Assembly: GCA_017465565.1 (NCBI GenBank)
Contig: JAFTWA010000014.1
Span: 1-64,000, forward strand
Origin: Tyzzerella sp.
GTDB taxonomy: Bacteria; Bacillota; Clostridia; Lachnospirales; Lachnospiraceae
DNA: 64,000 bases
Reading direction: 5' to 3'
Made by a program: the position numbers and the translations under genes. The notes below the pieces were generated by a model. It was not told where the DNA came from and searched no databases. It saw only the letters and a list, made by a program, of their open reading frames with translations. Shown here piece by piece: positions 54,828 to 61,028 of the stretch; the stretch's first letter is position 1; each line of letters starts with the position of its first letter.

Positions 54828-55583
54828 CTACACATATCCGTAAATTCCACGCACGGATACTTCTCCTGCAAACACAGCCTCCTGGCTGCCGTCCGCTTTT
54901 TGAACCAAGAGTTCACCCTCTTTATTAATCCCCAGTGCCCTGGCTGTATATTCATTTCCAGGCTCTAACACCTGAACCTCTCTATTACAGTTGACGAGCA
55001 TCCGATTATACGCATCCTGTAAAAATGCTAAATCCTTCTTCTCTAGGAACCTCTCGTAATCTTCGTCAAACACTTCTAAAATCTCTGCGATAAGCTGCTC
55101 GCGATTCACTTCTTTTCCGCCTTCCAGACATAATGAAGTCGCTTTATCCTGTAACTCCTCCGGAAACGCTCTCATATTCGCGTTGATACCAACACCTATG
55201 ACCACATGAGAAATCTCCTGTCCCTCAAGCTCCATCTCTGTCAGAATTCCACAGATTTTCTTTCCAGACAGGATCAAATCATTCGGCCATTTAATTTGAA
55301 CATCCCCATAGCCTCGTTTTCGCAAAGCTTTTGCGATGCTGTACGCCATAACGAGCGTAAGCATCGGTGCCCTGGACGGCTCCATCTCTGGTCTGAGTAA
55401 TAAAGACATATAAATATTCGTCCCAGCCGGCGATTCCCATGTCCGTCCACGACGGCCCTTTCCTGCTGTCTGCTTATCCGCCACGACAACAGTTCCGTGC
55501 TGCGCGCCTTCTTTGGCCAGTTCTTTCACTCTTGTATTTGTCGAGTCTAACTTTTCATAGTATAAAATAATTCTATTCTCCAA
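54828..55583 (-). CDS. birA: Biotin-[acetyl-CoA-carboxylase] ligase, monofunctional
   Basis: 251 aa. Attaches biotin to carrier proteins. [36 protein letters not shown] includes the biotinyl-AMP loop; [17 protein letters not shown] and GVGINAN follow. No N-terminal helix-turn-helix is present, so it is not a repressor. The start is taken as the TTG of [16 protein letters not shown] at 55583, six bases after GGTGG and overlapping the upstream stop by 11 bp. A longer frame runs into the carbamoyltransferase gene and is unlikely. Confidence 0.92.
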
Positions 55584-56508
55584 GTGTCGCCACCATAACT
55601 GCTTTGATTGTGTGAAGACGGTTTTCTGCTTCATCGAATACGATGTCTGCATATTTTTCAAACACGTCTTCTGTCACTTCATTTCCTTTTACTGCTGGCA
55701 GACAGTGCATAAAGATGGTTCCTTCTTTACCCGTCTTATCCATCAAAGCCTGATTAATCTGATATGGATGCAATAAAGCAATACGCTCTACCGTCTTATC
55801 CTCTTCACCCATTGAGCACCATACATCGGTGTACAATACATCTGCGCCTGCTACTGCATCCACAGAATCTGTAATTGTCACAGTTGCTCCAGACTCTGCG
55901 CCGTATTCTTTACAGAGTTCCACCAAGCCTTCTTCTGGCCATAACTGCTTTGGTGAAATAATCGCAACATTCACACCTACTTTGGCACAGCCAATCATAA
56001 GGCTGTTCGCCATATTGTTGCGCCCGTCACCTAGATATACAAAATTGAGACCCTTTACATATCCAAAATGCTCTTTCATTGTCAATAAATCTGCGAGAAT
56101 CTGTGTTGGATGATACTCATCTGTAAGGCCATTCCACACAGGAACACCACTGTACTGCGCAAGCTGTTCTACGTGTTCATGCTTAAATCCACGGAATTCA
56201 ATTCCGTCAAACATACGGCCCAGTACACGTGCTGTATCTTTTACACTCTCCTTATATCCCAACTGAATATCATGTTGTGAAAGATAAGTTGGAATACCGC
56301 CCTCATCCTGTGCACCTACTGTAAATGCACAGCGTGTTCTTGTCGATGGCTTTTCGAAAATAAGTGCAATATTTTTGCCCTTTAATGAATTTCCTGTAAT
56401 CCCCTGTTTCTTCTTTTCCTTCAAATCTGCCGCAAGATCAACCAAATACATAATCTCCTCGGCAGTAAAGTCTTTCAATGTCAAAAAATGACGTCCCTTT
56501 AAGTTCAT
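55573..56508 (-). other. argF: Ornithine carbamoyltransferase moiety with possible internal start
   Basis: 311 codons from the ATG of [20 protein letters not shown], the usual OTC N-terminus and length. AGAAAGGA lies 7 nt upstream within the patatin frame. OTC makes citrulline from ornithine and carbamoyl phosphate. No other arg genes are in the window. This start could yield a separate enzyme from the same mRNA. Confidence 0.7.
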
Positions 56509-57609
56509 CTCGTAATCCTTTCTGATGTCCATAAAAATATGCACAAATCTTGGTAAATTTATTTTGTCTTTCCGTTCGTTGTACTTTTTATATACTTCCT
56601 GTTCCAGCCCACGAACCGTATAAATCTTATACTTTGGAACACGAAGTAACTTTGCGCCTGCCTCCAGCATGCTGAGATACAGCTCCATATCCGAATACCC
56701 ACGCGATAATTTTAAAACAAACGCAATCTCTGCTTTTTCTATTTCGCTTAAACCTTCTAGTATCTTTTCATAATACCACTCTTCCTGCGTTTGTTCAATA
56801 TAATAAATTCGACCGATGAGCCCATAAATCATACGTTTTGCGTCATAATAACCCAATTTGAGATTCTGCCTGCTGCGCTTCTGATGAAACTCGATAATAC
56901 TTCCAAGCTTGACCTTTGGCGCAATCTCATGAAGTTCAACATGGTCTTCCACCTTTACCCGCTGCACCCGTCCTGGTCCAAAGATACGAATCTGAATCAA
57001 ATTCTCATAGCCGCGCTCCAGCAGGGAATTCAGCGGAAAATTATTGATGATGCCGCCATCCACATATTTCTGCCCATGTAATCTCTCATTCTTAAATCCA
57101 ATAAGATATGCACTTGCAAGCAGGAAATCTTCCAGCATACCTTCCGGTATGTCATGAATACTAAGGTCCAGCTCCTGCATCTGGGAAAGTGAAAATGTCA
57201 ACAGACACAATTCTATACCTGATTCGCGAATTTTCTTTTCATCTACATGTTCATGAATCAGCTCCCTGAGTGGCGTAATGTCCACACCGCCATCTGAAAG
57301 ATGTGAAAGAACTTCGCCGACAATCTCCCGAAGGCTGTGTTCCTTATTGAAAAAATCTTCCATCCATTCATCGTCCACATCCATGACACGCGAAAATGTA
57401 ATCTCGTGCCAAATCTTTTCTGCTCTCTCCACATCTCCCATGCAGATAAGGGCTCCATTTAGCGCGCCAACCGAGGTTCCCGCCACTGCATTAATCTTTA
57501 CACCAGCCTCTGCAAGCGCTTTCCATGCTCCAATCTGATAGGCACCTCTGGCACCACCACCGTCTAAAACAAGTCCATACTCTTTTGTCAAATCAATTAC
57601 TGGGCGCAT
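55573..57609 (-). CDS. Fusion: patatin-like phospholipase plus ornithine carbamoyltransferase
   Basis: 678 aa in one uninterrupted frame. Residues about 12-300 are a patatin lipase: oxyanion loop [11 protein letters not shown], nucleophile Ser46 in [10 protein letters not shown] and Asp184 in [13 protein letters not shown] linker of some 60 residues follows. From Met368 the protein is a complete ornithine carbamoyltransferase: [10 protein letters not shown] and [11 protein letters not shown] bind carbamoyl phosphate, VWCSMGEE is the ornithine loop and MHCLPA the catalytic Cys. Start at the ATG of [10 protein letters not shown] after GGAGGTGG. An internal AAAGGA precedes Met368, so free carbamoyltransferase may also be made. 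The two activities share no known pathway. Confidence 0.9.
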
Positions 57610-57652
57610 ATGCCACCTCCATTTATATAAAGATTGCTCTGATAGCACAATC

Positions 57653-57674
57653 GGGGTATGCTCTCGCATACCCC
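57653..57674. other. Perfect 9-bp hairpin between SPFH and patatin-OTC genes
   Basis: GGGGTATGC, TCTC, GCATACCCC. Strong stem but no T-tract, so more likely a processing or stability element within the operon than a terminator. Confidence 0.55.
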
Positions 57675-57687
57675 TCATCATTATATC

Positions 57688-58620
57688 TTATTTCTCTTTT
57701 GCAACTTCTACCACTGATTTTGCAAGTCCTGCAATTCCCTGTAATTCTGATGGAATAATAATCTTTGTTGCCTGACCATCTGCCGCTTTTTCAAATGCTT
57801 CCAGACTCTTAATCTTAAGTACTGCTTCATCTGCTCCAGCTTCTTTCAGGAATCTGATACCATCTGCATTCGCTTTCTGTACCTTTAAGATAGCCTCAGC
57901 TTCACCTTCTGCTTCACGGATACGTTTTTCCTTTTCAGCCTCTGCACGAAGAATTGCTGATTGTTTTTCCGCCTCTGCTTCCAGAATCACAGATTCTTTA
58001 TTACCTTCAGCAACAAGGATTGTGGATTTCTTTTCACCTTCTGCACGAAGAATCGCTTCACGACGTTCACGTTCTGCTTTCATCTGTTTTTCCATCGCAT
58101 CCTGGATAGCTGCAGGTGGAATGATGTTCTTTAATTCTACACGGTTTACTTTGATTCCCCATGGGTCAGTTGCCACATCAAGAGATGCTCTCATCTTTGT
58201 ATTGATTGTCTCTCTCGAAGTCAATGTCTGGTCTAATTCCAAATCACCGATGATGTTACGGAGTGTAGTAGCTGTCAGATTCTCAATCGCCATAATTGGA
58301 TTCGCAACCCCGTAGCAGAATAACTTAGGGTCTGTAATCTGATAGAATACAACTGTATCAATTCTCATTGTAACATTATCTTTTGTAATTACTGGCTGTG
58401 GTGCAAAGTCTACAACCTGCTCTTTCAGGTCCACTCTTCTTGCAACTCTTTCAATGATTGGAATCTTGAAATGTAAACCTACGCCCCATGTAGCCTGGTA
58501 AGCACCAAGTCTCTCAACAACTAATGCCTGTGCCTGTTGTACAATCTTGACACATGAAAGTAACAAACCAACAACAATCACTACTAAAATAATTCCTAAA
58601 ATTGGTAAAACAAATCCCAT
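57688..58620 (-). CDS. SPFH/stomatin-family membrane protein (QmcA-like)
   Basis: 310 aa. One N-terminal membrane helix (about 4-26), an SPFH/PHB domain (VVERLGAYQATWGVGLHFKIPIIERV onward), then a long Ala/Glu/Lys coiled coil (about 180-250, repeats of AEAEKQSAILRAEAEKE) and a hydrophobic C-terminal patch. Such proteins form large membrane rings tied to protein quality control. 2 bp after the NfeD-like gene, its usual partner. Confidence 0.93.
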   Translation of the reverse strand: MGFVLPILGIILVVIVVGLLLSCVKIVQQAQALVVERLGAYQATWGVGLHFKIPIIERVARRVDLKEQVVDFAPQPVITKDNVTMRIDTVVFYQITDPKLFCYGVANPIMAIENLTATTLRNIIGDLELDQTLTSRETINTKMRASLDVATDPWGIKVNRVELKNIIPPAAIQDAMEKQMKAERERREAILRAEGEKKSTILVAEGNKESVILEAEAEKQSAILRAEAEKEKRIREAEGEAEAILKVQKANADGIRFLKEAGADEAVLKIKSLEAFEKAADGQATKIIIPSELQGIAGLAKSVVEVAKEK

Positions 58621-58622
58621 AC

Positions 58623-59057
58623 CTATACCTCCTCTTTCTTTACAATTAATTTTACGCCTTGTATTCCTTCGATTACAACAATTTCGCCCGCTTCTATAGT
58701 CTCCTCTGGCTCATCTGTCTTTGCCGACCATTCCATACCATTCACTTCTGCACGGCCAACTCCGCGAAGCGTGTCAATCTTTTCTAATACAATTGCCTTT
58801 TGTCCTATCAGACTTTCCGCATTCGTACGCTGACGTTCTTTATTAAAGAATTTAACCGCAATTGGTCTCGTCAAAACTAGTAATAAAATGGAAGCCAACA
58901 GGAAAACAATAACCTGCACTGGTAAGTCGAATCCAACAAACGCTAGAACAAATGCAAGCGCAGCACCGCCGGCAAACCATATCGTTGTTAAGCCCATTGT
59001 GAAAATCTCAATAATCAGAAGAACCACAAATAGAATTAACCAAAATATTGTTCCCAT
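58623..59057 (-). CDS. NfeD-like membrane protein
   Basis: 144 aa: two or three transmembrane segments in the first 75 residues, then a soluble OB-fold (SLIGQKAIVLEKIDTLRGVGRAEVNG). This is the short, protease-free NfeD form that partners with SPFH proteins. First gene of the operon behind a promoter with WalR-like boxes. Confidence 0.92.
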   Translation of the reverse strand: MGTIFWLILFVVLLIIEIFTMGLTTIWFAGGAALAFVLAFVGFDLPVQVIVFLLASILLLVLTRPIAVKFFNKERQRTNAESLIGQKAIVLEKIDTLRGVGRAEVNGMEWSAKTDEPEETIEAGEIVVIEGIQGVKLIVKKEEV

Positions 59058-59093
59058 AATCTCGCCTCTCTTTCAGACTCTATTAATAATCTT

Positions 59094-59149
59094 ATTTTAC
59101 TATATTCATTTATAGAATTCAATAAACTGTGAGTTACAATATTGTTACA
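59094..59149 (-). promoter_or_regulatory. Promoter of the NfeD operon with upstream WalR-like box
   Basis: TTGAAT (59117-59122), 17 bp, TAAAAT (59094-59099). TGTAAC-N5-TGTAAC at 59133-59149 lies 10 bp upstream of the -35. That spacing is the WalR (YycF) consensus for activation of envelope genes. Confidence 0.6.
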
Positions 59150-59172
59150 AAGAGGGACACTTTCTTATCAAA

Positions 59173-59201
59173 CAAAAAAAGAGCAGATTGTCTGCTCTTT
59201 T
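59173..59201 (-). terminator. Terminator after the wall hydrolase gene
   Basis: AAAAGAGCAGA and its complement with a 3-nt loop, then TTTTTTTG on the minus strand. Confidence 0.9.
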
Positions 59202-59216
59202 ATAACTCCCCATGTG

Positions 59217-60023
59217 CTAGCTGAAGTAGTGGTCGCCTAATTTAAATTTTCCACTATGCATATTAAAGAATAATGCATTTCCAATTGGGTTCGCACCGTT
59301 CATAGAATCGATTGCTGCATCATAGCATGAAGCCGGGATATTTCCTGATGCTAACACACGTGCCAGCTTCCCAGTCATTGCTGGTGTGAATTGTCCACGT
59401 TGGTAAATAACACCTTCCAACGTATTAGGGAAACGTCCGCTTTCGATACGGTTCATAATAACTGCACCTACTGCAACTTTTCCTTCGTACGACTGATTTC
59501 CAGCTTCGCAATAAATAATTGCTGCCATTAACTTAATTTCTTCTTGTTTTCTCTTTTCAGCTTCAATTTCTTCTAAAGTCTGTGCATCTCTTGTTGTTTC
59601 TGCACATGTTACTGCTGCTCTTTCAACAGCTGCGCTTCCAAATAAAAGCGATTCTGTTCTTACATATCCCACAACTGAGCCAGAAGAAATCTTTGACCAT
59701 TCTTCGCCTTCTTCTACAGTCACAATTGTGTTACTGTACATTTTTCCGATTACAGTACCGTTTGCTTCTGCATATACATCCAGTTCACTGTCTGTATTTG
59801 CTAACGCCTTCCCGTACCATTCTTGTGTATCTACTGCGACACTTGCCATTGCTGAAATTTCATTCCATGTATCAGCAAGTGGTGCCATCTCCATTTCATA
59901 GTTTGTGTTCATTGCCTGAGCTTCAGATTGTGGATCCGCAGCAAATACTTCGAATTCTGCTGTAAAAACCATGCAGCCAGCAAGTACAAGACTTACAATC
60001 CCTTTCTTTTTCTCAAAAAACAT
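59217..60023 (-). CDS. Secreted SleB-like cell wall hydrolase with SH3 domain
   Basis: 268 aa. Signal peptide ending near AAD at residue 30, an SH3-like module (about 72-130, YAEANGTVIGKMYSNTIVTVEEG), a charged linker (EEIEAEKRKQEEIK), then a Hydrolase_2 domain: AAIIYCEAGNQSYEGKVAVGAVIMNRI with the catalytic Glu, and FFNMHSGKFKLGDHYFS at the end. Family members cut peptidoglycan as lytic transglycosylases or amidases, in spore cortex or vegetative wall. WalR-like boxes upstream favour a vegetative growth role. Confidence 0.92.
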   Translation of the reverse strand: MFFEKKKGIVSLVLAGCMVFTAEFEVFAADPQSEAQAMNTNYEMEMAPLADTWNEISAMASVAVDTQEWYGKALANTDSELDVYAEANGTVIGKMYSNTIVTVEEGEEWSKISSGSVVGYVRTESLLFGSAAVERAAVTCAETTRDAQTLEEIEAEKRKQEEIKLMAAIIYCEAGNQSYEGKVAVGAVIMNRIESGRFPNTLEGVIYQRGQFTPAMTGKLARVLASGNIPASCYDAAIDSMNGANPIGNALFFNMHSGKFKLGDHYFS

Positions 60024-60242: not shown

Positions 60243-61028
60243 TTACCAATTATTTTTTCTTCTTTGACGCGCGACCTCAAACATCAGAATCGAAGCCGCT
60301 ATCGCAGCATTCAGGGATTCCACCTCTCCCTGCATCGGAATTTGCACCCAAATATCAGCCTTTTTTGAGACTTCATCGCGAAGTCCATTTCCTTCATTTC
60401 CTATTAAAATGGCAGTTCCTGGCTGGTAATTTTCCTTGTCATAAGAGTTCTTTCCTTCCAGGTGTGCTGCGTAAGATTTGATTCCCTTCTTATTAAATAT
60501 ATCCAATAATTCCAGAAGGTCTTCTACATACAAAACCGGCATCCTATAGATAGAACCCATAGTCGAGCGAATCGTCTTCGGATTGTAAATATCTACACTC
60601 TCTTTACTCAGGAAAACAGCGTCTACCCCTGCCCCTTCAGCAGTCCTTACAATGGTTCCCAGATTACCCGGATCCTGTAAATTATCCAGCACCATGAAAT
60701 GCGGATTCTCCACTTTTAAAAGCTCGTCTAACTCGTATTTTTTCTGCTTCACTACACACAGAACACCCTGTGGAGTTTTGGTGTCAGAAACATGTTGAAA
60801 TACGCTGTCAGATAAGATTTCCATTGGAAATTCACCCCAATTTAAATCCTGTTTCTTCTTATTATATAGTGATTCAGAAACATACACTTTTTCGACACGT
60901 TCCTTCGGCACTTCGACAAACATGCGAAGCCCTTCTACAATAAATACCTTTTCCTCATTCCGCACCTTACTTTTCTTCTGTAGCTGAAGAAGTCTTTTCA
61001 CCTGCGGATTACTTGTACTTGAAATCAT
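60243..61028 (-). CDS. TrmH/SpoU-family RNA 2'-O-ribose methyltransferase
   Basis: 261 aa. N-terminal substrate-binding part (STSNPQVKRLLQLQKKSKVRNEEKVFIVEG), then the knotted SPOUT domain: LDNLQDPGNLGTIVRTAEG, ILIGNEGNGL and VESLNAAIAASILMFE, the three SAM/knot motifs. Methylates rRNA or tRNA; RlmB- and TsnR-like members share this layout and the target is not clear. 25 bp after the response regulator gene. Confidence 0.93.
   Translation of the reverse strand: MISSTSNPQVKRLLQLQKKSKVRNEEKVFIVEGLRMFVEVPKERVEKVYVSESLYNKKKQDLNWGEFPMEILSDSVFQHVSDTKTPQGVLCVVKQKKYELDELLKVENPHFMVLDNLQDPGNLGTIVRTAEGAGVDAVFLSKESVDIYNPKTIRSTMGSIYRMPVLYVEDLLELLDIFNKKGIKSYAAHLEGKNSYDKENYQPGTAILIGNEGNGLRDEVSKKADIWVQIPMQGEVESLNAAIAASILMFEVARQRRKNNW

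Follow-up and report, generated by a model that had tools for sequence, protein, structure and literature searches.

A patatin-like phospholipase gene joined in frame to ornithine carbamoyltransferase, with a conserved internal start codon, in Lachnospiraceae

Ornithine carbamoyltransferase (OTC) is a trimer. Fusions of arginine-pathway enzymes with another domain include ArgH(A) of marine gamma-proteobacteria (PMC1382215). Pairs of N-terminal proteoforms with internal in-frame starts are reported to be enriched among (inner membrane) oligomer-forming proteins (PMC11005335). With respect to the operons which pair SPFH and NfeD genes, the word "lipase" was not found in the available part of the text on these systems (PMC2636767). 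A patatin-OTC fusion was not named in the literature searched, which consisted of titles and abstract openings, with subscription journals mostly outside coverage. Here such a fusion is described from the window, that is, the whole 64,000-nt stretch of Tyzzerella sp. DNA that was analyzed.

The fused gene and its two halves

55573..57609, minus strand: fused patatin-OTC open reading frame, 678 aa plus TAG (open reading frame list, profile matches)
56509..57609, minus strand: patatin half, residues 1-367 (profile and structure model)
55573..56508, minus strand: OTC half, residues 368-678, short type of 311 aa (profiles and motifs)
56506..56508, minus strand: OTC start codon ATG, residue 368 (sequence)
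56516..56521, minus strand: internal Shine-Dalgarno AAAGGA, within the final codons of the patatin half and 7 nt ahead of the OTC start (sequence)

A complete patatin is followed in one frame by a complete OTC, with no linker between them. The frame is open on the minus strand from 57609 to 55573, and the plus-strand reading of 55573-57609 is full of stops. A preliminary description of this DNA, which gave no strand, had reported one 678-codon frame with the catalytic motifs of both enzymes, and its coordinates and motifs proved right. The patatin half scored 101 bits with PF01734 (gathering threshold 27.7 bits), with the Pfam match at residues 13-196 (E 1.3e-28), and contains the nucleophile Ser46 (GTSVG), Asp184 (DGG) and the oxyanion motif GGGARG, in keeping with the GxSxG serine, DG[GA] aspartate and oxyanion GGGxRG motifs of patatins. 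By profile and motifs this half is a patatin-like phospholipase, for which lipid acyl hydrolase activity is predicted. The OTC half matched OTCace_N at residues 373-513 (2e-50) and OTCace at 519-674 (5.3e-54), and exceeded the cut-off of the OTC equivalog TIGR00658 (437.1 versus 280.85 bits). Its STRTR, HPTQ, SMG and HCLPA motifs, characteristic of OTC, are intact. A CBASS or other anti-phage patatin effector was rejected, as scores were below cut-offs (NF041079, 24.9 versus 200 bits; NF053870, 23.5 versus 400 bits); PADLOC matches of the patatin were weak (E 1.5e-7 to 6.6e-6, no cut-offs given).

AlphaFold modelling of the fused monomer (mean pLDDT 86.8, pTM 0.57) gave two well-formed domains, in which a patatin helix at residues 354-366 is followed by a short loop and then by OTC, with a mean pLDDT of 67 for the junction (residues 361-370). 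Because the overall pTM is low, no interface between patatin and OTC, and no mutual placement of the two, can be trusted. The OTC half matched known OTCs in fold searches. When the whole model was searched, only carbamoyltransferase chains were among the matches listed and most of residues 1-365 was not covered; the nearest relative of the patatin was assigned by sequence.

Spread and origin of the fusion

The family draw consisted of 397 genomes, 77 of them with a patatin at E<=1e-40, and the DNA of 69 was examined; the eight left out (G369, G035, G288, G144, G189, G010, G315 and G060) have open frames of 229-475 aa each. Contigs of relatives were taken from the best 80 of 214. The resulting 115 loci gave 95 distinct patatins after 20 with identical patatins had been dropped. 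A search for the same two-domain architecture elsewhere, as the preliminary description had suggested, returned at least 37 distinct fused genes among these 95. The fusion was found in 20 of the 69 patatin-bearing family genomes examined, from 18 genera, and without a stop in 8 of 10 genomes of the window's genus; one more fused gene (G717), found later, stands outside both the tree and the 37. Named carriers include Dorea sp. D27, Lachnospiraceae bacterium CE91-St61 and Sporofaciens musculi. GGGARG, GTSVG, STRTR, HPTQ, DVW.SMG and HCLPA were present in all 37 distinct fused genes, and DGG in 34 by pattern match and in the other three by eye (YLDGG), the complete patatin signature of GGGxRG, GxSxG serine and DG[GA] aspartate thus being found in 37/37.

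The window's genome is a draft of 62 contigs, which might raise the suspicion of an assembly or sequencing error at position 56510. The fusion is also present in long or single contigs, among them AP025573.1 (titled complete genome) and the one-contig genomes G094, G331 and G240. Since the same open frame recurs in 37 distinct relatives, it is due neither to chance nor to misassembly, and an error can practically be dismissed. The preliminary description had allowed for an erroneous junction, or for genes that are always separate in relatives; neither was the case, as relatives share the fusion. As larger fusions, G330 (872 aa open frame) was rejected because of an upstream open stretch, G180 because its patatin and OTC genes are separate, and G700 and G702 (L164, L165) because the matches lie about 40 nt apart and the match holds TAG.

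With respect to the role of the OTC, 32 genomes were searched, 27 of them fused and the others being G005, G009, G014, G086 and G203. In all but one of the 27 fused genomes (26/27), no OTC other than the fused one exceeded the family cut-off. Genomes with argG numbered 30 of 32 (26 of the 27 fused), G005 and G254 being those in which it was not found, and arcA was found in 1/32 (1/27 fused), namely G254, which is 77% complete and has a second OTC beside the arginine deiminase gene. In the window genome (88.6% complete) argG is present, arcA is absent and one OTC is over the cut-off. A single OTC together with argG, with arcA nearly absent, indicates that the enzyme is most likely biosynthetic and working, fused or free; by gene content the fused OTC is thus most likely of the anabolic (ArgF) type, serving arginine synthesis. 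A catabolic (ArcB) assignment of the window OTC was rejected on the presence of argG, the absence of arginine deiminase and the single OTC.

In the maximum-likelihood patatin tree all 37 fused genes were placed in one clade of 42 rows (100/100). The remaining five rows are G009 (window's genus; not fused, stop TAA one base before the OTC ATG), G086 (not fused, TAG two codons before the OTC ATG), G014 (patatin kept, no OTC), L037 (contig ending within the junction, where the frame is open) and G005 (window's genus), in which OTC and argG were not found and the patatin is in frame with BirA. As G009 and G086 have the OTC gene next door and are nevertheless not fused, fusion is not strictly required, and as the patatin persists in G005 and G014, where OTC is missing, it can evidently do without OTC. 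The basal branching order of the clade is ambiguous, so that either one fusion with two reversals or more than one fusion is possible, and G009 may be either a reversal or an older state. The patatin-BirA fusion of G005 (L012 / L110 / L167) is 627 aa long and has a Shine-Dalgarno-like GGAAGGGA after the patatin part, followed by in-frame GTG and ATG codons.

Patatin and OTC often adjoin as separate genes in Lachnospiraceae relatives. In the 14 rows of near sisters the two genes either stand 16-88 nt apart or overlap (ATGA), and in more distant rows the gaps are mostly of 43-328 nt. Their frequent adjacency when separate indicates that the fusion arose from neighbouring genes, and the gaps and overlaps of the sisters indicate that it did so by loss of the gap and the stop. 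The junction is the patatin's own C-terminus, as the patatins of separate-gene relatives have a similar motif at their end, such as IPTFVQLALGFITIRE-stop in L033. The preliminary description had stated that the two enzymes have no known link; this must now be qualified with respect to gene order, the two being often adjoining genes in the family. A functional link of lipid cleavage with arginine synthesis is conjectural.

Two types of OTC, of 311 aa and about 329 aa, occur behind the junction. The short-type OTCs of 17 fused genes grouped together with that of G086 in the OTC tree (99/95). A single clade of these 17 is rejected by the patatin data (AU p 0.00064), and the patatin tree requires at least 5 changes of OTC type. 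G094 and G331, near neighbours in the patatin tree, share 76-84% DNA identity across the patatin, the junction and the first 35 OTC codons, and identity falls to 56-59% over OTC codons 35-100. From this drop inside OTC, recombination appears to have exchanged the OTC body and left the junction alone, and comparison of the two trees suggests that OTC halves have been swapped at least five times behind an unchanged junction, of which process the fused clade would provide an example. In L099 versus L100, OTC bodies of the two types are exchanged with a breakpoint near OTC residue 35.

The genes and the intergenic region on either side of the fusion are as follows.

57610..57687, minus strand: gap from the SPFH stop to the patatin start, with two hairpin-like inverted repeats (by eye) and a Shine-Dalgarno GGAGGTG
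57688..58620, minus strand: SPFH/Band 7 protein, upstream neighbour (profile)
58623..59057, minus strand: NfeD protein, upstream neighbour (profile)
54828..55583, minus strand: BirA (biotin protein ligase) with a probable TTG start; the open reading frame list gives the start at 55661

The first inverted repeat of 57610-57687, GGGGTATGC/GCATACCCC, recurs as GGGGTGTGC/GCATGCCCC upstream of the L009 patatin. The probable TTG of BirA overlaps the OTC stop (55573-55583), and translation of OTC and BirA may also be coupled.

Gene order was determined at 49 selected loci, of which 20 carry the fusion, 4 are further rows of the clade, 15 have separate genes and 10 come from those with OTC and no patatin. 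BirA followed OTC in 19 of the 20 fused loci; in the exception, L016 (same record as G006), there was no BirA match between OTC and a 109-aa gene, in contrast to the other five loci of the genus examined. Adjoining NfeD and SPFH genes upstream of the fusion, as reported earlier, were confirmed in the window. SPFH was directly upstream of the patatin in ten fused loci (L014-L018, L024, L171, L172, L173 and L175) and not in the other ten (L019, L021, L022, L027, L030, L166, L174, L176, L177 and L178), absence being judged with at least 3 kb of upstream DNA. It was upstream in 4/4 other clade rows, in 10/15 separate-gene loci and in 10/10 loci with OTC and no patatin (about 2.5-3 kb away in L061 and L063). 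As SPFH is common in non-fused loci, it represents an old arrangement beside the OTC locus, lost by approximately half of the fused loci checked. This loss counts against a required SPFH-patatin partnership; SPFH/NfeD was rejected as a constant partner, and the earlier suggestion, drawn purely from gene order, that the patatin acts near SPFH rings is weakened. In L019, L021, L022, L027, L166 and L176 the gene abutting the patatin resembles the window's 60243-61028 frame (by eye), ending in L021 a single base ahead of the patatin start. In these six loci neither SPFH nor NfeD stands between that gene and patatin-OTC, the block having seemingly been lost in part of the fused clade.

Internal start, junction and expression

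The AAAGGA 7 nt before the OTC Met is as had been described, and is spelled by codons -5 to -3. A Shine-Dalgarno-like match of 4-6 nt with a start codon at the OTC Met was found in 37/37 fused genes, the codon being ATG in 36 and GTG in one (L024). Mean Shine-Dalgarno pairing at this position was -7.4 kcal/mol versus -2.1 at the remaining in-frame ATGs of these genes, ranking best in 18/37 and among the top two in 27/37, and local RNA structure was -1.2 versus -7.6. In the window gene the pairing ranked third of 18 and the local structure fourth. A Shine-Dalgarno with weak structure at the OTC Met is, as far as sequence can indicate, the context of a working start, and from its retention in every fused gene the gene most likely gives two products, a 75-kDa patatin-OTC and a free 34-kDa OTC; the earlier proposal of both products from an internal ribosome binding site is accordingly supported as probable. 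The weak structure may be inherited from a once-free gene, and the start context partly follows from the free-gene ancestry of OTC, yet it has been kept; the Shine-Dalgarno letters also constrain the same codons that look conserved at the protein level. For annotation this is a warning that a single long frame likely holds two products.

As no stop lies between the halves, all patatin made carries OTC unless a protease cuts it. Cleavage at the junction by a host protease, leaving cells with separate patatin and OTC, would fit the less well predicted junction of the model; a conserved cleavage motif was not apparent, the two residues that precede the OTC Met are freely variable, and we consider such processing improbable.

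The last 12 patatin codons are gap-free in the alignment of all 37 fused genes, and the final two positions are highly variable, with 21 and 11 different codons. Changes of junction state numbered 2 in 7.47 branch units of the fused clade versus 10 in 4.83 of the near sisters (p 0.0024), a comparison in which "fused" is a single state. When both groups were scored alike, by distance from a conserved motif and with four rows lacking an IYT-like motif left out, there were 4 fused versus 11 sister changes (p 0.014), and frame changes were 1 versus 6 (p 0.017). Neutral simulation of the last two codons gave no evidence of selection against stops (37 stop-free tips, P 0.083; at most 2 tips, 0.458), and with the last four codons the values were 0.010 and 0.102, respectively. 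As junction changes are rarer and the simulation of the last two codons is non-significant, the data point to selection for the fused state without demonstrating it.

With respect to regulation, operator-like TGNATN4ATNCA palindromes, which resemble arginine-repressor operators, were found within 200 nt upstream of OTC in 8/31 genes with gaps of 40-400 nt, in 0/13 genes with shorter gaps (one row: gap over 400 nt) and in 1/37 fused genes, there inside the patatin (L104). In six of these eight genes with gaps of 40-400 nt (L038, L052, L069, L086, L093 and L150), all with separate OTC, paired sites flank a TATAAT-like hexamer (by eye). Nothing consistent was found in or upstream of the fused genes, strict matches being L104, L108 (240 nt upstream of the patatin) and scattered others. 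A promoter scan of 55400-59400 listed 10 promoter-like sites versus 9.8 expected and 1 terminator-like site versus 2.5, with none in 57610-57687, and is too noisy to place a promoter. The fused OTC is presumably transcribed as part of the patatin unit; as the strict operator pattern was present in only 8/31 separate genes, loss of an arginine-controlled promoter is a conjecture.

The best explanation, to which we give a probability of roughly two in three, is that neighbouring patatin and argF genes merged with the OTC start and ribosome-binding site retained, one message now giving the fusion and free OTC. Comparison with relatives shows that the patatin and the single biosynthetic OTC gene were joined at or close to the root of a single clade, through loss of the intergenic gap and the patatin stop codon, and that the start signals of OTC were kept, the ribosome-binding site now lying within the final patatin codons. 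Ribosomes would then make both the 75-kDa and 34-kDa proteins from one message; patatin would be made solely in OTC-attached form, barring proteolysis, and, OTC being a trimer, would be expected in homo- or mixed trimers on an OTC core. OTC output would be tied to the patatin's transcription unit instead of its own promoter, and OTC activity would serve arginine synthesis. The physical link between the two may be largely a side effect of gene packing and not an enzyme partnership.

Only a little short of an even chance is given to neutral stop loss, by which the gap closed and a stop near the OTC start was lost, the fusion polypeptide having no role, the OTC tail being a tolerated passenger on the patatin, and free OTC from the internal start doing the arginine work. 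Relatives display possible steps (16-88 nt gaps, ATGA overlaps, stops lying 1 or 3 nt upstream of the ATG), avoidance of stops in the final two codons was non-significant, the G005 patatin is joined to a different neighbour, the internal start is kept in 37/37 and upstream neighbours change freely. Against this, frame and spacing are unusually stable across 18 genera, and at least five OTC swaps left the frame open, though a breakpoint inside OTC explains the latter without selection.

A selected bifunctional enzyme, in which trimerisation of OTC provides a scaffold or a gate for the patatin, or the patatin brings OTC to the membrane, so that lipid turnover is coupled to citrulline synthesis, would be in keeping with the intact motif sets of all 37 genes, the stable junction and the obligate attachment of patatin to OTC. 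We judge it unlikely given the pTM of 0.57 with no trusted interface, the patatins of G005 and G014 without OTC, SPFH/NfeD directly upstream in only half of the fused loci and a metabolic logic which is not apparent. That an OTC trimer bears up to three patatin heads, the fused/free ratio setting their number and so tying membrane-lipid turnover to arginine supply, is a speculative and distinctly doubtful extension.

Comparison with known systems

This locus represents a conserved fusion in 18 genera of two enzymes without a shared pathway, with the internal start kept, and a biosynthetic enzyme apparently without its own promoter any longer; it offers a natural case in which to ask whether function or inertia maintains gene fusions. 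Compared with anabolic ArgF (TIGR00658), the N-terminus is extended by a whole patatin. With patatin-like phospholipases (PF01734; nearest solved sequence PlpD, 5fqu) the serine, aspartate and oxyanion motifs are shared; the match to PlpD spans residues 10-214 only, and the fusion adds a C-terminal extension with a helix leading straight into OTC. As in the SPFH-NfeD operons (PMC2636767), NfeD lies beside SPFH upstream of the fusion in the window; among the 20 fused loci checked, SPFH is directly upstream in only ten. Like ArgH(A), this is an arginine-pathway enzyme fused in one bacterial group; the ArgH(A) partner also belongs to the arginine pathway and so has a metabolic logic, whereas here the partner is a lipid hydrolase (PMC1382215). 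As with the N-terminal proteoform pairs, one gene would give two products by alternative initiation in a strong Shine-Dalgarno context, here predicted from sequence; unlike them, what precedes the internal start is a whole second enzyme, and that start is an ancestral gene start (PMC11005335).
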